From Eutreptiella sp. 'Long Island Sound 2002' (taxonomy: Eukaryota > Euglenozoa > Euglenophyceae > Eutreptiales > Eutreptiaceae): 64,000 nt of DNA. Position numbers and translations under genes: made by a program. This document shows, in pieces, positions 1,376 through 53,240 of the stretch (the stretch's first letter is position 1; every line of letters starts with the position of its first letter). Location: the NCBI GenBank assembly GCA_964036045.1, contig OZ038391.1, positions 43,659,621 to 43,723,620 of the forward strand. The letters run 5' to 3'. The notes below the pieces were generated by a model. It saw only the letters and a list, made by a program, of their open reading frames with translations, did no database searches and was not told the origin of the DNA.

Positions 1376-1970
1376 CTCGAGGGTCTCCATCAAATGGGAC
1401 AGGGTCAAAAGTGGCTGCCTCACCCCAACCTTCCCGGGGGCCCAAATGAGGGCGGAAGTGCTACGTAACCCCTGCGTTCTCGGGGGTCCCCATCAAAGGG
1501 GACAGAATCAAAAGAGGTTGCCTCACCCCTACCTTCCCGGGGGCCCAAAATAAGGGCGGAATTGCGACGTCGCCCCTGCGTTCTGGGGGATCCCCATCAA
1601 AGGGGACAAAATCAAAAGTGGCTCTTATACGGCTTCTTTCGCTAGGGGCTTCAATCGAAAAGCATGTTATGGTTACAGTTTCAAAACGAGTGTATGGACC
1701 CCCCCATGCAGCAACCCTGAAATTGCAATTTTCAAAACTTGTAAAATCGATGCTCATATACATGAAATTTGTGGAAAACAACTACAACGCACCACATGGT
1801 AAAACAAACAATTGCTAGTCACACGCCCAGTTTTTGTGTTCCAGGTCCCCATCAAAGGGGACAGATTCAAAGGTTGCTACCTCACCCTTCCCCTCTCGGG
1901 GGCCCAAGTGAGGGCAGAAGTGCTACGTACCCCCTGCATTCTCGGGGGTCCCCATCAAAGGGGACAAGAA
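1376..1970 (+). repeat. Minisatellite of about 104 bp, split by a 220-bp spacer
   Basis: Units start with GGGGGTCCCCATCAAAGGGG, continue CCTCACCC..CCTTCCCGGGGGCCCAA and end GTGCTACGTA.CCCCTGCGTT. Two full units and a partial lie at 1376-1623, and another full unit plus a partial at 1848-1970. The intervening 1624-1847 is unrelated and may be an insertion. Confidence 0.85.
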
Positions 1971-2664
1971 TGGCCTACGTTGGGCCGTCAGTGCTCTGAG
2001 GGGTGGTCCTTAAGGGCGGCCCTGAAAAGAAAAAAAATAGTTCCTTAAGGACCACACTGATCAGAAGTGGCCCAAAAGTGGCACATTGGCGACAAAAGCC
2101 CATATCCTCAACACAAGGGGCAACTTTTCTCCAACTGGAGTGGTAGTGTGAGGTGGACTAAGCAAACCCTTCACCCAAAAAAAGGGGGGGGTTTGGTTAT
2201 ATGAAAACCTTGCTTTTGCCTAAAAATTTGGCCAACGAAAAAAGGGGGGGGGTTATGTAAAACCCCCCATGCTGTCGTTCTCCGCAGATGCGCCCCCCCC
2301 CCCCCCGATCAACCCCCCTGTCAGCTGCGCCTGTGAGGACTTCCTTCACCATTTTCAGCCGGCATGGACCGGCAAGCAAAACTTGAGCCGCAAATTTCTT
2401 GTGACGTCGATTTGCAGAAGGCAATGGAATTACCATTTTGGGGGAAACCTTGACGGCCGCTTTGGCCTTGGGTCTGGCTTATGTCATTACAGACTTGTAA
2501 TTTTGGGAAACACCACATGCCGCCCCCCCACCCCCTGTTGGACCCAGTTGCATACCATAGCCCAAGGGAATAGTACTGGGAGTTTAAACCTTGTATAGCC
2601 CCAATGACTTTTTGCTTGGAGACTCCCCAGGCCTCCCCAACTGAAGACGCATTTTTAGGGGGAT

Positions 2665-2800
2665 TTTCCAGAATGGCAAAGTAAGTCTGCATGTTGGTAC
2701 TTCTGGATGCATGCACTTGTTCAAGTTTTGGAGAACAATCTGAATACATTGTTTGTCCCCAGATGGTAGGGAAACGTGTTTTGGTAGGTGAGCGTAGCCT
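2665..2800 (+). repeat. MITE-like end, GTTGGTACTTC family, copy 1
   Basis: AAAGTAAGTCTGCATGTTGG leads into TACTTCTGGATGCA and then a stretch around GAATACATTGTTTGTCCC. It matches 23062-23200 over about 110 bp and shares its terminal motif with 25671-25715 and, inverted, with 26153-26190. Confidence 0.65.
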
Positions 2801-3929
2801 GTTGTCCCTCCGCTCACGGTGGCTGCTTTTGCTCCCGTGGCGTCCACTCCACTGCCTGCAGTGGCAGCCTTCATTTTCAGTCATTTGCAGACATTGAAGA
2901 TTTGGAGGGTGCTTTCCACCATCTCTGTTCCCGGGCATTGCCCTGCATCCCCCTTCCCATGTCCCCTCTCTGTGCCTCGGCCATGGCAGAGCCTTCGCGA
3001 AACCACATGCACAAGGGCTCCTTTCTGAGGAGTTGACCCAGGCTTGGGTCACTGGCTGTTGTGCTTGCTATTCCAAAAAAGGCATGCCTTTCAAGGTGCC
3101 GGTGTAGTAGAATATTGCTGCTGTTTATCCGTGAGGCTTATACACGGTTTTGACCCCCACCCCACCCCAAGCCACGGGGTGCACCGTGGGATTGGTTTGC
3201 CCCCCCCCCCCCCCGCCCCCTACTTTGGGGTCGGGATGCACAAAAAATGGCTTTTGGAAGGATAGGGAGGCTAGGGGCCGGGATTTTGGGGCAAAAAGGA
3301 GGCCAACGATAGGGTATAACATCACTGCTGATGGTATCCCACCCAGACCACTAAAAATAGCCATTTCCCCCCCACAAATAGTCCATATTTATCTTTTCTT
3401 CCAAACTTGTCTGAATAAGGGGGGGGGGTGTGGCAGCGTAGGAAATACGTTCGAAGGGTCAAGCGGGAAAACTTCCCATAATTATGGTACTCTACAGTGA
3501 CCCTTTAGTAGGCTATCTGGAGCAGCTGATGAGCATCCAACCATTAGGAAGCCTCTGAGAACATTTGTGGTTAGGATGCATCGGAAAGGGGCTGCCCCCT
3601 TCCCCAACTAGGGGGTCGGTGGTTTGCCCCGATGGGTGCAGCCCCTTCCAACTGGCATTGCGCCTTTGAGGAATGATGCTTGGAATGTGCACGTGGGGTC
3701 ACTTTGGTGGCTTGCTGCGCCCTCACAGCCTAATGAGGGGGTTTGGAAACAGGCTTGAAGGCCCCCCGCCCGTGCGCCTATCGCTGGCGCTGACACGCAC
3801 ACGTATGCGTGCACATCGCCGTGCACGCACTCCATATCCTTCGTTGTGACCCCATGGGCTTGCATTCTCCGAAACGATGCAACGTGACTCTACTTGGCAT
3901 TGTACTGCAGTGCACTGCGCTCAGGGATA
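2800..3929. other. No gene recognised
   Basis: Contains poly-C/poly-G runs (3198-3212, 3420-3429) and no domain I recognise. The minus-strand open frame over 2321-3052 (243 codons) has no recognisable motif and partly overlaps repeat sequence. Confidence 0.5.
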
Positions 3930-45138: not shown

Positions 45139-46011
45139 TCACCGGGCCCGGCATGCTGTGGGCACAAACACTGGGAGCCGTCCTACAGAGACAGTGTAGC
45201 CCCGCAGGAACTGACGCCTCTGCGGGTGGGCCAATTGCCCACTGTTCGCCAAGGCATCTGCACGCTCATTGCCTACCACACCAATGTGGCTGTAGACATG
45301 CCGCCACAACGCGCGTGCTATACGAGCAGACGACTCGGATTGCAGCTGTTGCCACAAGTCCGCATTGGGAAAAGGCCTTCCCTGCAACCGCCAACGTTGG
45401 AGGTGCTTGGGAATGCCATCATACACATACTTACTATCAGTGACAATCCTGAGCACCTGGCCCCGTGGTGCCACTCGCAAGGAAGCAATGCAGGCTAACG
45501 GTTCGGCTTGATTGACTATCTGCATTGGGCCTTCCAGGGGCTGCGCCACATTGCGTGGGTCCATGGGCCCAAACCACACGCCATCGCCCGCAAATCCCTG
45601 GCCCGGTCCCTCGGGGGCATAGGAGCCATCCGTGTACACCTCAGGGATGTCTACTAGGTCTGGCTCCACGCACTGCACATCTGCCAGTGCACGTTTCCTG
45701 CCCACTCTGTCCACAGTCACTTTCTGGAAGTAGCGATTCGGGTGCTGCGGAACTGGGTTATCCCGCTTTTGGCCCGCCGCATCCGACTCTGGACTGACTG
45801 GGATATTACGGTTTGTAAGCCAGCCCTCCAAGGCCCCTGCAAACAGGAGAAACCGCTTGGTGATCCAAAGATAAGTCCGGCATAGCAAGCCATTTAAGTA
45901 CCTCTGAGTGGAGTACCGGAAGGTAAGCTTGCACTGAAAACTTGGCTTGCTGAAAAACGGTAGCACACCTGCAGGACCATGGTACCCTAACAGCCTTTCA
46001 GGGGAGGACAC
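45139..46011 (-). CDS. RNase H domain of the non-LTR retrotransposon
   Basis: The open frame holds a complete RNase H fold signature from about residue 125: VYTDGSYAPEG (first Asp), VNQAEPLACIASL (Glu), RIVTDSKYVYDG (second Asp), and YSHIGVVGNERADALA (His region and final Asp). All four catalytic acidic residues are present. The enzyme would remove the RNA strand of RNA-DNA hybrids during second-strand synthesis. It lies downstream of the RT on the same strand but in a different frame, with about 470 bp of frame-shifted sequence between, so it was probably once part of the same polyprotein. The frame ends PTACRAR followed by a stop. The true start is unknown. Confidence 0.85.
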   Translation of the reverse strand: MSSPERLLGYHGPAGVLPFFSKPSFQCKLTFRYSTQRYLNGLLCRTYLWITKRFLLFAGALEGWLTNRNIPVSPESDAAGQKRDNPVPQHPNRYFQKVTVDRVGRKRALADVQCVEPDLVDIPEVYTDGSYAPEGPGQGFAGDGVWFGPMDPRNVAQPLEGPMQIVNQAEPLACIASLRVAPRGQVLRIVTDSKYVYDGIPKHLQRWRLQGRPFPNADLWQQLQSESSARIARALWRHVYSHIGVVGNERADALANSGQLAHPQRRQFLRGYTVSVGRLPVFVPTACRAR

Positions 46012-46480
46012 CGGGAGCCCTGGTCAGCGAGAGCAGGGGGTAAGTGGAGCACAGCCGACAAATCGGCACCCTGCCACCCGGACCCTAGACCAAGGGGAAG
46101 GTACACTGCACAATTCTCACAGGATCGGTGCCTTGGTGCAGTGGTACACATCCTCCAAAACCGAGTCAAACGGGCATCAATATGGATAGGCGGGCCAGGT
46201 CGCTTTCATACGCGAACCCACCGAGAGTTTCGTCCACAGGCAAGTGTCTATGAAGTCCAAGTCCGCTGGGGGCGAGGGTGAGGCAGTGGAATGCACGCCA
46301 CACCCTTGCCGGTTGACGTTGGTCTGCCCAACAGCGCGCCGCCACTGCCCCCGAAATAGGCGTAAAACGCAACCCCTGATCCATTGGGAGGGGGGGGACT
46401 ACACCCTGAATCGGCTGGTGCCCCTCCCAAGCCGGGATGAGGCGGCGAACAAGCGACAGAAGCGCCTGATGCTGATGAGC

Positions 46481-47728
46481 TTAGAGTTTCCGGGCCCCCT
46501 TCCAGCACTGTGGCACCACGGCCTGCCGTGAGGCAGGGTCTACCAAGTTAGAGACCCACAGGACACCCCGACGAATCAAATACTTGCACATCATAGATTT
46601 CTCGGACATTGTAACCAGCCGGTTGTTCCACAAAGGGGCCGCAGCCACTTCCTGCCAAGGCAGGCCCAGCCCTTTATGCAAACTATTCAGAGCAGACAAG
46701 GCTTTCACAGACGAGGCCAGCCACGGCGCGTTACGGATACCACACGGGGACAACTGCAACAAAGGCAGCTGGGATGATGTATGTACAGTACCCGTGGAGG
46801 AAAGCCAAGTAGAAAAGGTGTCATGCGCCTCTAGGCCATACCGGGTAGGCTGTTGCAGGTAACGCGTAAACGTTGCCTCATGGGTTGTCCAGAGATACAC
46901 CTCCGGGAGCCGAAGCCCTATCCCCCCCTGTGCCGCACTTAGGTGCGGCACATGCCATGGCACCTTCCCATTCTGCGCACGAAAAGCCACGACCAGGGCC
47001 CTACGCAGACGCTTGAGCACCTGGTCCGGCGGAGGGTGTGCCACATTAGTCACTTGCAACACAGGATAACACCACATGTGCAGGAGCAAGACTTTCTGCT
47101 GCCGAGACAGAGGCATGCGTGAATTTTGCACACAGCGTGACTCGAAGAGAGCCACTGGCTGATCATAGGCAGCTAGCACAGAAACATGCCCGAACTGCGT
47201 GCTCAGATAACGTACATGGGACACCACCTTGATACCAGCCACCCACGGGGCCGTAAAGCCCTGCAAGAGGAGGTGTGTTTTCTCGACGTTCAAGCGAAGC
47301 CCCGTACACTCACCAAAGGCCTTAAACTCGGCAAGAAGGGACTGCAGATCGTCGCCGATCGTTGCCTCGCGTCTAGTGAGACGGACGAACGCATCATCAG
47401 GGTAGACCCAAATGTGTGCCCCATAGGGGCGCAACACAAAGCAGATTACAAAAGTAAGCAGGGAAAACAAAATCGGGGAGAGGGGGTCACCTTGGCGAAT
47501 CCCTAATGCCGGGGTCAGGGATTCCTCACGCACCACCCCACCCATAACAAGACATAGCACTGGGCCCTTGAGAATCCGCATCGGCACCGCTAGCCAGGGC
47601 GCCGGAATGCAGATGTACTTGAATAATGCAGCCATCATCGGATGGCGGACCGAATCATGCGCTTTACTGTAATCTACAATGAGCCATGCTGAAACCTCAT
47701 CTCCTGGGCCACTGTGCCACATCTGTTG
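46481..47728 (-). CDS. Reverse transcriptase of the non-LTR retrotransposon (N-terminus displaced)
   Basis: From the CAA codon at 47726-47728 the frame reads the RT core: motif A AWLIVDYSKAHDSV, motif B GIRQGDPLSPILF, motif C YPDDAF, then NVEKTHLLL and a thumb-like region. Non-LTR RTs normally have YADD or FADD at motif C; proline here is unusual and may reflect decay. The same open frame continues upstream to 47962 through transposon DNA, so its first 78 codons are not retrotransposon. The part of the RT before motif A lies at 50863-51430. The frame ends at 46481 before the RNase H. Confidence 0.9.
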   Translation of the reverse strand, partial: QQMWHSGPGDEVSAWLIVDYSKAHDSVRHPMMAALFKYICIPAPWLAVPMRILKGPVLCLVMGGVVREESLTPALGIRQGDPLSPILFSLLTFVICFVLRPYGAHIWVYPDDAFVRLTRREATIGDDLQSLLAEFKAFGECTGLRLNVEKTHLLLQGFTAPWVAGIKVVSHVRYLSTQFGHVSVLAAYDQPVALFESRCVQNSRMPLSRQQKVLLLHMWCYPVLQVTNVAHPPPDQVLKRLRRALVVAFRAQNGKVPWHVPHLSAAQGGIGLRLPEVYLWTTHEATFTRYLQQPTRYGLEAHDTFSTWLSSTGTVHTSSQLPLLQLSPCGIRNAPWLASSVKALSALNSLHKGLGLPWQEVAAAPLWNNRLVTMSEKSMMCKYLIRRGVLWVSNLVDPASRQAVVPQCWKGARKL

Positions 47729-47963
47729 GGGTGGGCGAAAATTGGCTTGCGCCCACGGGGGGTCACGGATGTCCATTTCCCAAACCCCCCCCCCCCCTTC
47801 TGGCCCGCCGTGACGGGGCAGTGACAACCGGTATACACAGCCCCCCAGTCCCCCCCCCCTACCCCCAACGGTGGTGGTATTTATGTCCGGTCCATTCCGG
47901 TTGCATCCCATAGCACGGGGGGGGGGGGGATGCAACGCCCCACCATGGCCTCCCGTTGGCAAA

Positions 47964-49411
47964 TTAGTCTGATGCAGATGTCAAGGAAGACACATCAGAG
48001 GACTCCGATGAATCAGAATCAGAACATGTGCTGTCACTGTCCGAGCTTGACGTGCTATCTGAAATGGAAGCAGAGGTAACATGGGAGCTGGAAGCAGAAT
48101 CTTGGGTGGAAGGCACGTAATCACCATCTGCAACTCTGGAATCACCACTTGATCCCTGTGCGACACAATCAGGACAGAACCACGAATGATTTGGCACCTG
48201 TGTAACAGGTGGCAGGAGGCATTGTTGGTGATACCCAATCGTGGAGCTATGGTCCCCGTCACAAAGCAAGATGTCATTACCATCACTCACCTCACCACTC
48301 AAGCATATGACGCAAACAATGTCCGAATCATCACCCTCCGGATCAATTTGTAACACCTCTTCCACATGGGCAATTTCAGCTTCCTCCATGGGCAAGCTGT
48401 GTTGCTCGCGGATGAGGTGGATATAGTTGTACACTCTCTGGATTAGCTCTGGCTTGGGACCACTACTACACAAACCTTGTTGCATCAAAACCTTTTTCAA
48501 GTTTGACACAGTACACTGCCCGTTAATGCCCATGGAGCCACGCAATTGACGGAGGAGGCGCTCCACATCAGCCAAAACACCCGGTGTGACCTGCCCACAT
48601 CGCCGCTTCAAACGAGCCTCATCCTTCAAAAACTCCAAACTACGGCGATTGCCGAACCACTGCTCCACTTGGGAGACCTTCGACACATTTCCTAGTGCAA
48701 CTCTGGCCACCTCCTTCATTTGTTCCTCGGTAGGGTGGGAGGTTTGGCGGTACAGTTGCTTACAGTGGACAGATGGAGGATCAACCTTGAGAACCGTCAC
48801 ACCTCTTTTTTCCGCTTCCTCTGCAACACAATCTGCCGTCATGAAACTCCCATCATCAGCATAGATGGGGTCATTCAAGAAGGGAGGAATTGTGTGCACA
48901 CTGATGGACAGAACTGAGCAAGTCTGGAATGATGGAGGGCTTGGGTAATCTGCAGGGGTGCACAGGCGCTTCAGTTTGGTCACACAGGCTGTGCGACGCA
49001 ACTGAAAATCAAAGAAACCTGCAATGTGATGCAAATCCTGGTACCGCAGAGCATTTGCAATGGACAGACGTGTATTCAGGGGCACATCCTCGCTCTTTCC
49101 ATCAAGGACAGTGCGACAGTGCATCCTAAATTCCTGGGAGTATGTCTCTGACCCCGCAACCTCGGGATGGGACCTCAAACTGATGATGGGCATGTCACTG
49201 TAGGTGGCACCAGCAATGGCATTTGACAGGACCTCCTGAAAACGGCGGCGCCGCACGACGAGCATCTCTGCAGCAGGAAGGGATATGTCACTGGGTAGGC
49301 ACACAGCATCCCTCAATTTTGCCTTCTGCACAGCCCGAGTTTCTGCACCGTTTACCCGCTCAGCTTCATTAAATGAGGATAGGCCCGCTGCCCTGCACTT
49401 GTTGTGAGACA
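47964..49411 (-). CDS. Homeodomain-like / SAP / PHD-finger protein of the TIR transposon
   Basis: An open frame of about 480 codons with no internal ATG-based start evident; a TGA lies directly before it, and it overlaps the upstream frame by 44 bp. Segments in order: residues 30-200 unknown; about 218-262 homeodomain-like (HPTEEQMKEVARVA, then VEQWFGNRRS, the recognition-helix signature WFxNRR); about 299-331 SAP-like (TVSNLKKVLMQQGL, SGPKPELIQRV), a DNA-binding fold; about 367-416 PHD-like (CVIC, ILLCDGDH, YHQQCLLPP, WFCPDC), normally a histone-tail reader, with one zinc ligand apparently substituted; 425-482 Ser/Asp-rich acidic tail. No DDE catalytic motif was recognised. The combination suggests a DNA- and chromatin-binding protein, either a transposon accessory protein or a captured host regulator. 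Codon use and frame integrity suggest it is not long decayed. Confidence 0.75.
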
Positions 49412-49647
49412 ATCACAGCTTGTCTCACTTCACTTAAAAAGGCAGGGTTCGTACATCTCTTGTCAGCCAGCCTTTTCATGACACGTTGCTTCAGTTGCCA
49501 CCTACTCTGAACAATTTGAGTCCTATCCTTGCGCGGAGCAGTGAAAAACATTTCAAAAACAAAGAAATGTTCTGAATTCCAAAACTCTTCATACTCATTA
49601 CGAGGAACAGGGTAGGGCTTGAAAGGCAGGGGAATTATGTCTGACAT
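49369..49647 (-). CDS. Upstream frame of the same transposon gene
   Basis: The ATG at 49647 follows CTTTTTTCAGGCACCAG, which looks like a splice acceptor or a pyrimidine-rich leader. The frame of 92 codons (MSDIIPLPFKPYPVPRNEYE, EFWNSEHFFVFEMF, SRWQLKQRVMKRLADKRC) shares the region 49369-49411 with the next frame and would join it by a -1 shift or a small intron. No domain recognised. It is likely the N-terminal part of the homeodomain-SAP-PHD protein. Confidence 0.6.
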   Translation of the reverse strand: MSDIIPLPFKPYPVPRNEYEEFWNSEHFFVFEMFFTAPRKDRTQIVQSRWQLKQRVMKRLADKRCTNPAFLSEVRQAVIVSQQVQGSGPILI

Positions 49648-49657
49648 CTGGTGCCTG

Positions 49658-50600
49658 AAAAAAGATACTTTTTTTTCCCCCTTTCCTTGTGGGTGGGAGT
49701 AAGGAAAGGAGAGGTCGCGTTAACCTTTTTGGCCCCTATGGGATGGGGGGGTCTGAGTGTGTATTTCGCTTAGCCCACTTTATAAGGGGGTTGGGCATCG
49801 CGACTCCTGAGGAGGAGCCCTGGGCGCCCCCAGTCCTCAGTTTTTTCTTTTCCCCCCTCCCCTCCTTGGATCATCCAGAGAAGGGTGTAACACCTGCCTG
49901 ACATAAACTTCTGGCACAAAAAGCCCCACCCCTCCGGAGTTGTACCAATAAACTCCATCATTGGACGCGGCCGGCACCTAAGGGGCACCGGTCGAAACAA
50001 AAAAACAGTCAGTGGGGACCATTCATGGGTCCTGTCACAGTCCATCACAGAAACAGCACAGAAAAATTTAACTTGTCTGCAACATCCCTAACCTGTTGAA
50101 GTCATAAAAGGTGTGGAACCCGAAGGCAGGGGGCAAGAGAGCGGGGGTGGCCCAGGCGGGGAGGGTAGGAGAGGAACTTACAGGTTTTTATTTTTTAAAC
50201 CCCACCCTGCTCTCTTGGACCCCTTGGGTGCCTGGGCGTCCTCTCCTCCCCCCCCTGTAGGGCAAGAAGGTGAAACCTGCCTGCCCAGGCACCCAGCCAT
50301 CAGACAGCACCTGTTTAACTCAGAAAGGATGGTTCGCCAAAAAAGAAAAAATAAAATTTGCAAAGTGGTGCTGTCAGTGGCCCCCTGTGTTTAACTGACT
50401 TTTGTTTGTTTCCTTGTCAGGGGCTGGTTGCTTCGGGGAAGGGGTCGAGAGCAGGGGGGGGGGGTTTAAGGGGTATGTGTGCCTGTGACTGACACAAAGG
50501 GTCCCCCCTGATGGGGGGACCTGTAGAAAACTGTCTTGGGGGGGGCATGCACATGCAAACATGCAAACATGAAGACATAAAAAAGACGAAAAAAGCGAAG
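49658..50600. other. 5' non-coding part of the TIR transposon
   Basis: Two GC-rich blocks with internal complementarity (around 50120-50165 against 50205-50265, and CCTGGGCG/GCCCAGGC words). The sentence-like repeat GA(C/T)CATNCATNGGTCCTGTCAC occurs at 50017-50040 and 50754-50777. No gene recognised; a promoter or intron of the transposon gene is possible. Confidence 0.5.
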
Positions 50601-50603
50601 GGA

Positions 50604-50610
50604 AAAAAAG
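50604..50610 (-). terminator. Oligo-T run after the tRNA-like unit
   Basis: Seven T on the minus strand, four bases past the 3' end of the tRNA-like unit. Consistent with RNA polymerase III termination. Confidence 0.45.
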
Positions 50611-50614
50611 AGTA

Positions 50615-50686
50615 CATGAAGCGGGGATTGAACCCAGGACTCTTGAATCAGAGCCTAGGCCTACTACCAACTAAGCTACCTCAGGA
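50615..50686 (-). tRNA. tRNA-like pseudogene or tRNA-derived unit (Pol III type)
   Basis: On the minus strand a 72-nt unit has an A box (TAGCTTAGTTGG, 50668-50679), a B box (GGGTTCAATCCCC, 50624-50636), a 4-bp D stem, a 3-bp-plus-wobble T stem with a TTCAATC loop, and a T7 run at 50604-50610 just downstream, as a Pol III terminator would be. The acceptor stem does not pair, the anticodon arm (GGCTC..GAGTC) leaves an 8-nt loop and there is no room for a variable loop, so the anticodon cannot be assigned. It sits inside the TIR transposon, about 180 bp from its end, upstream of its gene on the same strand. Confidence 0.5.
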
Positions 50687-50862
50687 TCTGACAAAAATTA
50701 AAAATCAGAGAGTGTATATCATACTAAAAAAAAAAAAAAAGGCTGACAATGAGGACCATACATAGGTCCTGTCACGGATGTCCATTTGCCAAACCCCCCC
50801 CCCCCCCTCCTTCAGGCGACAGCCGTGACCCCCCCCGGGCGCAAGCCAATTTTCGCCATCCC

Positions 50863-51430
50863 TTGGACAGAAGCCAGATAGTCGAACATGGTGTGACCGC
50901 GACGGTAGGCCTTTTGTTGGGAAGGGACCAGCTGAAACAAGGCATCCTGCGTAGCAGGGTCCCTGTTACCCACTTTTGCCTGGCCTGTTTAAGCGCAATG
51001 GGTCGCTAGCGGTCCACCGCGGCTCAGCCCGGGTCTTTGGGCAACGTGCGCACAAGCGCCGTCACCCACTCATTTGGGAGGCCCAAAGCCTCAATTGCCT
51101 AATAAGCACAATACATATTACTAACGGAAAAAATTTGGAAAGCCTTGTAGACCCCTGCCTGGATGCCATCATCCCCAGCAGAGGATGAGGAGTCCATCTG
51201 CTGGAAGGCCGCATAAACCAAGTCGTCAGAGCAGGCCTTCCAAAGCAGTGGTACCGCCGTGCGCCACTGCACTGGCAGGCGCCGAGCCTCCAGCCAGCTA
51301 AAGCACTCCTCCTCTAAGCGGGTCCCCGGGCACATGATTGTGCTCCAATAGGACACCAACTCACGAGCAATTGCCTGAAGATCACACAACAAGTGACTCG
51401 ACCGAGCTTTCAACACACATGCATACACAC
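50863..51430 (-). CDS. Retrotransposon RT region upstream of motif A
   Basis: The frame 51099-51428 contains LPVQWRTAVPLLWKACSDD and SSSSAGDDGIQAGVYKAF, the S..GpDGI....YK.f block that opens non-LTR reverse transcriptases. Further down, in another frame, VPSQQKAYRRGHTMFDYLAS followed by VQ corresponds to the ...Q.gF..GR...D.i block and ends exactly at the transposon's TSD. At least one frameshift or stop lies between, so this copy could not make an intact RT even without the transposon. Confidence 0.75.
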
Positions 51431-53240
51431 GGGACTACTGTACCTGGTGCATCAGGCGGTGCAGCGCCTTGGCACGCCACCGCCGCGCCTCCTGTAAATG
51501 ATACTTATCGTGCAAAGCCTCACGCACCATAGTGTAGGTGCGCTCGAGCTGCTCTACACCCCTATGTACAGAGAGACACTTCACCAACACAACATAAGCC
51601 TCATGCATGGTTTGAGGCCGCTGCCCTCCCCTTGTAGGGCCGCAAACCCTGCAAGGGGGACGTACTCTGGGGACGAGCGGCGCAAGATGTTATGCGCAAA
51701 GCAGATACTCCGGCGTAGCCACAGGAGCCTGTGCATTATAATGGCGCGCCGCCTCATGCAGCACTGGCTTGCTACGCTAGAACACCTCCAAGCCACAGAC
51801 CCTCTCATCTATGAGGGCCTTTAGCTCCGCTAAAACCCCATAGGCTGCGTATAGAACTACTTTGCAGCTCAGCCCGCCGTTCCTCTGGCACATCCGGCAG
51901 CAACGCCCACTAAGTGTCACAGCGCCCAGACGGTCCCTGGAGCAGCTGCACCCGGTCGTAGGGGAGGTCGGTCGCTTTGAGCAGCTCATCAATCTGGCGC
52001 TTTGGCAACGATACTGCCCACAGCTCTGCTGGAGGGCGTACTGGCACAAACAAACTTGCAGGCTCTGTACCAGAAGCCAGTAGTGGTCTAGACTTCAAGA
52101 GAGCCTTCGGAGGAGAGTGCTAGGTATAGTGGGCTGCAGTGGTGCGCACGTACCAGGCATAGAAATACCTGCCGCCCACCTCTGAGAGCGGACAGCTCAG
52201 CCTCGCTATTTCGATCCAGGGCTAGGGGGCCTTCTCCCGCAGATAAGCGGCACCATGATAAAGAGGACGATGCATGGAACACAACACCACCAGATGAACC
52301 TCTACTACAGACAATTGCTTCTGCACAAACCGCATGCACTCTACTACTTGTAGCGGGGAGTCTTCCGTCGAAAGGAACACAATAAGAGCTGTATGATGCC
52401 ACAGGGCTTGAGGAAGGGGAGGAACCCCTTCATTTTGTAGAGAGGACCAGTTCAGAGTCATAGCAGCAACATCACTGGAGGACAGCCAGTGGCGATCCGG
52501 AAATGCATAGTTCACAAACTCCGCTGAAATGCGGCAAGAGATGGCGAGCTGGGTTCCCTCATAGGATACGAGCACCGATTCCCCGGGAACTGCATGATGG
52601 GCCAAAAATTTATTCCGTATGGCCTAGATTGCTATTGCTGGGGCACTAGGGCCTGCGCCCGCACTAGCTAGAGCAGCAGGCCCAGTGCCTGCACTCAGAC
52701 AACAAACTGGTACCTGGGGACGGTGGTACTGACGAGGGAGGAGGCGGGACCTGTGGGGGCTGCAGTTGCCCGTGACCACCACCCGGCGGCACAGATGAGG
52801 TTGGCGCAGGTCCCCCAGAGACAGGGGAGGAGCTTGCTATTTGCTGATAGGCCGCCAATTGCTGTTGCGCCAGAAGCTGCTGTCGCTCGCGCAATTGGGC
52901 ACGGCGGTCACGCTCCCCGTACCACTCAGCCCATTCCTCAGGAGTGTACTCTCCAAGTCCATCTGTGGCGTGCATGTCATCGGATTCCTCGGAGACGCCA
53001 TAGAAGGCAGATGGGGCGACAAGCTGGAGTCCCTCAGAGACCAGATTCTCTGCTGAGGGAGCATGTGGTTGGGGCGATACGCGTGGCGGAGGAGCACGAT
53101 GGGGCCCCGCAGCAGCCTGTGCAGGTGTGTTGGCTGTCGAAGCGATTTCGTGATATCAGCGTCCGCGCGGGGACTTGATCAGTGTGGGCCTAGGCACGAG
53201 GCCTGGCAAAGCGTCAAAGAACAGAAATACATGGCGCCCA
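51430..53240 (-). pseudogene. 5' region of the retrotransposon (coding-like, decayed)
   Basis: Open frames 52222-52605 (FVNYAFPDRHWLSSSDVAAM, HHTALIVFLSTEDSPLQVVE) and 52664-52975 (YTPEEWAEWYGERDRRAQLR, a Gln-rich stretch and a Pro-rich end) are on the same strand as the RT. They probably belong to the N-terminal part of the element's protein or a first ORF. I could not recognise an endonuclease or nucleocapsid motif, and frames change repeatedly. Confidence 0.5.

Follow-up and report, generated by a model that had tools for sequence, protein, structure and literature searches.

What kind of mobile element carries a protein with homeodomain-like, SAP-like and PHD segments followed by an acidic Ser/Asp tail, and by what enzyme is it moved? 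This question is raised by an element with terminal inverted repeats (TIRs) at positions 47729-50862 of a 64,000-nucleotide stretch of the Eutreptiella sp. 'Long Island Sound 2002' genome (contig OZ038391.1, positions 43,659,621 to 43,723,620), hereafter the window. An initial interpretation from the letters alone (the sequence-only reading) saw no recognisable transposase in the element, and regarded it either as a so far unknown transposase that brings a module for chromatin targeting with it or as a non-autonomous element that had captured a host chromatin regulator. Comparison with further copies and with related proteins leads us to conclude that the window element is very probably a deleted, non-autonomous cut-and-paste TIR DNA transposon, the DDE transposase of whose parent carries the homeodomain-like/SAP-like/PHD/Ser-Asp module; the transposon lineage is apparently undescribed. 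Throughout, L-numbers denote genomic loci and P-numbers proteins, P0001 being the 482-codon protein of the window.

Boundaries of the element and its copies in the genome

The two ends of the element are inverted repeats of 45 nt in which 40 of 45 positions pair (89% complementary), and a 19-nt end core has two occurrences in the window, exact and inverted, against a chance expectation of 0.01. The trinucleotide TTG lies directly outside both ends, so that the inverted ends and the 3-bp duplication described in the sequence-only reading both stand. The element interrupts an open reading frame for a non-long-terminal-repeat-type reverse transcriptase with RNase H (RVT_1 and RNase_H; 45139-51434, minus strand). 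When the flanks are joined with a single TTG the RVT_1 match grows from profile positions 71-192 to 30-192 (47.2 to 51.4 bits), in keeping with the earlier claim that this gene continues on both sides; long frames across the junction are also obtained at other join offsets, so frame length alone is no evidence here and the support from continuity of the reverse transcriptase is modest. The features of the element are as follows.

47726-47728, no strand: left copy of the target-site duplication (TSD), TTG, placed from the 3-bp TSD of paired copies (below)
47729-47773, plus: left TIR, GGGTGGGCGAAAATTGGC type, from end pairing, core match and genome copies
47964-49397, minus: C-terminal part of a DDE transposase, from the third catalytic residue to the Ser/Asp tail, by identity to L010; frame open to 49412
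47967-48104, minus: Ser/Asp-rich tail, from comparison with relatives
48165-48314, minus: PHD finger, P0001 residues 367-416 (Pfam PF00628, 28.2 bits, over the cut-off of 24; E 2e-6)
48420-48512, minus: SAP-like segment, residues 301-331 (PF02037, 21.0 bits, under the cut-off of 23.9; E 2.5e-4)
48639-48758, minus: homeodomain-like segment, residues 219-258 (PF00046, 16.4 bits, under the cut-off of 22.9; E 0.0082); its equivalent in P0017 gives a putative homeodomain fold in a structure model
49359-49370, minus: NEAE motif, in which the catalytic E is kept; each E is found in 22 of the 23 rows in alignment A5
49397/49398, no strand: internal deletion junction without microhomology, from comparison with L009
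49398-49647, minus: first part of an exon or gene (MSDIIPLPFKPYP...) that lies upstream in the element, brought into an out-of-frame fusion by the deletion; in L009 it continues at 4641-4231 (minus)
50818-50862, minus: right TIR, GGGATGGCGAAAATTGGC type, from end pairing, core match and genome copies
50863-50865, no strand: right TSD copy, TTG, from flank comparison

The sequence-only reading had made its case depend on further genomic copies with these ends, and such copies are present. A search of the genome that contains the window (2.28 Gb in 2,205 contigs) with a 20-nt end core, allowing up to three mismatches, gave 1,701 matches (861 forward, 840 reverse), compared with 11 and 6 for a reversed control; the number of matches, about 1,700, therefore points to probably hundreds of insertions. 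Ends were checked at 42 loci, namely the window, L008-L028 and L030-L049, with L001-L007 left out as repeats of counted copies. L009-L028 had been picked for a visible end pair and L030-L049 are 20 of the unpaired exact end matches; because the loci were drawn from about the first 100 places listed, the sample is non-random and favours perfect ends. Paired ends were present at 38 of these loci and absent from L036, L038, L042 and L044. Three flanking bases are identical at both ends in 36 of the 38 pairs (the exceptions being L009 and L037), two in one pair and four in none, from which it follows that the TSD is 3 bp long. The triplets themselves vary, and none of the 36 is TAA or TTA. The terminal sequences GGGTGG and GGGATG recur together in 36 of the 38 copies, with a single changed base in L008 and in L009. 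TIRs and a TSD of constant length, as expected of a cut-and-paste DDE element, are thus both found.

Among 16 of the pairs, deletion forms recur: ten measure 786-859 bp, with identical or almost identical junctions, and three measure 932-934 bp. Recurring short deletion forms of this kind are the route by which families of miniature inverted-repeat transposable elements (MITEs) arise.

An internal deletion that truncates a DDE transposase

At 5,335 bp, L009 is longer than the remaining 37 paired copies. It matches the window element in two blocks (window-element positions 2-1669 and 1670-3134, 94.6 and 94.8% identical), between which lie 2,255 bp that are missing from the window copy and that contain the front of a transposase. 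An intron at 49369-49412 was considered and rejected, since L009 shows the frame change to be a deletion junction. Accordingly, the joined 49647-47964 product that had been put forward is not one ancestral protein: the upstream frame (49647-49398) is part of a different exon or gene, continuing in L009, and the joined product is a deletion fusion.

In L010 (3,428 bp) the transposase is a single open frame of 771 codons, of which the 482-codon window frame is the C-terminal part, 98.5% identical over P0001 residues 6-482. The supposed absence of a recognisable transposase therefore does not hold. The RNase H-like core, with its D, D, E triad, is seen in relatives as conserved residues and as a predicted fold; the deletion has taken the first two catalytic residues (D1 and D2) from the window copy, which retains the E alone. 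In L009 the frame is broken in the PHD region, and L010 is missing the upstream region and has no Met ahead of residue 163, so that no copy seen is intact in every respect. On the evidence of these comparisons, the window element has undergone an internal deletion and is non-autonomous: it could be mobilised only by transposase supplied in trans.

The parent, an element of about 5.3 kb, begins with GGG, ends with CCC, generates target duplications of 3 bp, and encodes a protein of unknown function in addition to the DDE transposase. In the latter, an N-terminal region precedes an RNase H-like core (motifs WDDH, S-D-x-G-x-DH and NEAE), which is followed by the C-terminal module.

The second gene of the element was traced in L009 (3442-4713, minus) and L051 (129-1572), and its start is the peptide encoded at window positions 49647-49398. 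By eye, L009 and L051 have in common a MGDCGLYALLACC...ESL stretch and, further along, an HY, with the look of a cysteine protease; for the idea of an OTU-like protease, Pfam gave nothing at E ≤10 for the L009 reading and nothing relevant at E ≤1 for two L051 pieces. In a longer member, L053 (2166-4457, minus), the core is preceded in the same frame by several hundred residues, including an RWxLxxxVM stretch that resembles the window's upstream peptide by eye; that peptide may be the transposase's own N-terminal exon.

Conservation of the C-terminal module

The presence of homeodomain-like, SAP-like and PHD segments with a Ser/Asp tail on a mobile TIR element, as first proposed, stands; we use the names 'homeodomain-like' and 'SAP-like' because the scores of these two segments lie under the Pfam cut-offs. 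The order core, homeodomain-like, SAP-like, PHD is repeated in L050, L051 and L052 of the same genome (in L050 and L051 the homeodomain is assigned by alignment only) and, as far as the sequences extend, in P0014, P0016, P0017, P0018, P0020 and P0024, where the SAP-like and in part the homeodomain-like segments are likewise assigned by alignment only. In four metagenomic relatives (P0016, P0017, P0018 and P0024) the PHD finger is followed by a chromodomain, and the structure model of a relative predicts an RNase H/integrase-like core, a putative homeodomain, a PHD finger and a chromodomain. Among the 30 members of alignment A5, Pfam at E ≤10 matched a PHD finger in 8, a chromodomain in 4, a homeodomain in 3 and a SAP domain in 2. 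This alignment is made up of the window protein and all but one (P0002) of 30 relatives, and many of its members are fragments; its profile matched PHD chains in the PDB. The PHD finger has CDGxH in place of the usual CxxC pair in 10 of 10 proteins inspected, and L052 deviates.

Other searches returned little. The profile of A1 gave nothing convincing against the PDB, BFVD gave no match at E ≤0.001, viral_contigs held no relative of P0015, P0017 or P0020, and a tblastn search of plasmids with P0015 produced two chance matches only (E 6). An AlphaFold model for A3/P0010, with a predicted local distance difference test score (pLDDT) of 42, was set aside.

Between L010 and L051, amino-acid identity is 74% in the core, 74% in the homeodomain-like, 77% in the SAP-like and 66% in the PHD segment, and 53% in the Ser/Asp tail; non-synonymous divergence (dN) is 0.18-0.26 in the folded parts, and synonymous change is nearly saturated. 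More distant pairs show lower conservation in the module than in the core (27, 34 and 26% against 44% in L010-L052, for example), and dN is still below synonymous divergence (dS). This pattern of substitution indicates that the tail is under purifying selection and that the module is retained by selection along with the core.

Proposed mechanism and significance

In the mechanism that we propose, the DDE core would cut and join the GGG ends in a cut-and-paste reaction, whilst the N-terminal part, perhaps with the homeodomain and SAP segments, would bind DNA and recognise the ends. The PHD tail, together with the chromodomain in some relatives, may steer insertion to particular chromatin or tether the complex there; acidic residues ahead of the first Cys of the PHD finger hint at unmodified H3K4 as its putative ligand. 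The window copy, which has both ends and neither D1 nor D2, would move in trans only. In its domain architecture the parent family thus fits the first of the two suggestions, a hitherto unknown transposase equipped for chromatin targeting; the window copy itself is non-autonomous, with two of three catalytic residues lost, and the targeting is putative. Possibly, and we propose this tentatively, the family is a new eukaryotic DDE superfamily in which homeodomain, SAP, PHD and, in one branch, chromodomain on a single transposase act as a multi-part chromatin reader that sets target choice. If so, exchange between chromodomain and Ser/Asp tail from branch to branch would change the chromatin into which insertion occurs.

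To our knowledge, the choice of insertion sites in chromatin by DNA transposons is largely an open question, and few transposases with histone readers are known. A PHD finger (plus a chromodomain in relatives) fused to a transposase offers a direct way to study chromatin-dependent site choice, and with about 1,700 end matches the targeting question is approachable from sequence and chromatin data alone. The locus also illustrates that a deletion derivative can mimic a transposon with captured cargo.

Alternative explanations

The family might belong to the Zator superfamily, the eukaryotic relatives of bacterial ISAzo13 (transposase 36, PF07592), with a chromatin-reading tail added. Such a placement would give the lineage a name and is compatible with a deleted cut-and-paste element; we consider it possible if somewhat doubtful. 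The excerpted text of PMC10045372 gives a 3-bp TSD for Zator and ISAzo13, as found here, and excerpts of PMC5718144 and PMC7386202 describe their kinship. The order of the catalytic residues is also shared, the D-x-G and N-x-x-E motifs resemble those of ISAzo13-type proteins, and the D2-E gap is nearly equal (43 residues in 16 of 17 sequences and 44 in one, against 42 in five of five). Against this, PF07592 is absent from the families matched by the 30 members at E ≤10, and in the genome it matched only two stretches, elsewhere and under the cut-off (E 1.9 and 6.7), the control genomes giving only 1 of 14, likewise under the cut-off. An hhalign comparison with five ISAzo13-type plasmid proteins, four of them annotated as such, scored 13.0, below the median of 15.3 for 60 column shuffles, although this test is weak because the IstA control (13.6) went undetected too. 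The Azoarcus plasmid, with no ISAzo13 listed in its first 50 kb, was the source of the IstA control only. The homeodomain-SAP-PHD tail is a further difference, the comparison being with ISAzo13-type proteins.

An improbable alternative is that in some copies the tail has lost its part in transposition and is expressed from deleted copies as a tail-only repressor or a domesticated host factor. P0002, a cluster of 17 sequences whose sources include an MMETSP transcript, runs from upstream sequence of the element into the tail and lacks D1 and D2, and its transcript means that some copies are transcribed; its frame, however, is broken inside the SAP segment, and deletion junctions vary widely among copies, as decay would give. 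P0002 joins sequence like window positions 49961-49827 (minus) to sequence from 49178 (minus), and is either spliced or derived from another deletion copy.

Capture of a host homeodomain-SAP-PHD chromatin regulator by a non-autonomous element, which the window copy alone might suggest in having neither D1/D2 nor a Pfam transposase match, is rejected as very improbable, since the segments form the C-terminal part of the element's own transposase, continuous in frame with the preceding DDE core in L010, L050, L051, L052, P0014, P0016, P0017 and P0020, and since P0014 shares only 33% identity with the L010 protein, so that the union of core and tail is old and spans divergent subfamilies.

Other features of the window

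A tRNA-like segment with A- and B-box-like stretches by eye (50618-50692, minus) lies in the 5' region of the element and is possibly an old short interspersed nuclear element; ARAGORN reported no tRNA in the window. From 33500 to 64000 the window is dense in interspersed repeats, several with GGCGAAAAATGGC, and holds hundreds of inverted pairs, the flanks of which indicate an unrelated repeat family. A dinoflagellate host, considered at first, was rejected: a spliced-leader pattern had 0 matches with at most 1 mismatch across the 2.28 Gb.

Comparison with known systems

Family proteins matched no DDE domain in Pfam or NCBIfam; among the 30 members at Pfam E ≤10 the sole transposase-related match was HTH_Tnp_4 in P0012 (E 0.23). 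No transposase with this domain set appeared among the titles and abstract openings listed in searches of the open-licence PMC literature.

PIF/Harbinger elements share a 3-bp TSD and G-rich ends, and the weak HTH_Tnp_4 match may be set beside these; their TSD, however, is TWA, a triplet seen at none of the 36 sites here, and their Pfam DDE domain is matched by none of the 30 members at E ≤10. CACTA/EnSpm elements differ in their CACT(A/G) termini, in contrast to the GGGTGG/GGGATG ends of this family. Plant PHD-homeodomain proteins, and the SIZ/PIAS SUMO ligases with SAP and PHD, have single domains in common with the module, but these are host genes with a different domain order, and zf-MIZ was matched (E 1.3) in 1 of 30 members.

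Two further parallels are also distinct. In RAG1-RAG2 and ProtoRAG, the PHD finger of RAG2 works with a transposon-derived DDE enzyme, but there it sits on a separate protein, and both the core and the TSD length are different. The integrases of Ty3/Gypsy chromoviruses carry a C-terminal chromodomain as chromatin reader on an RNase H-fold enzyme; unlike the family described here, these are retrotransposons with a chromodomain only, and the window subfamily has no chromodomain.
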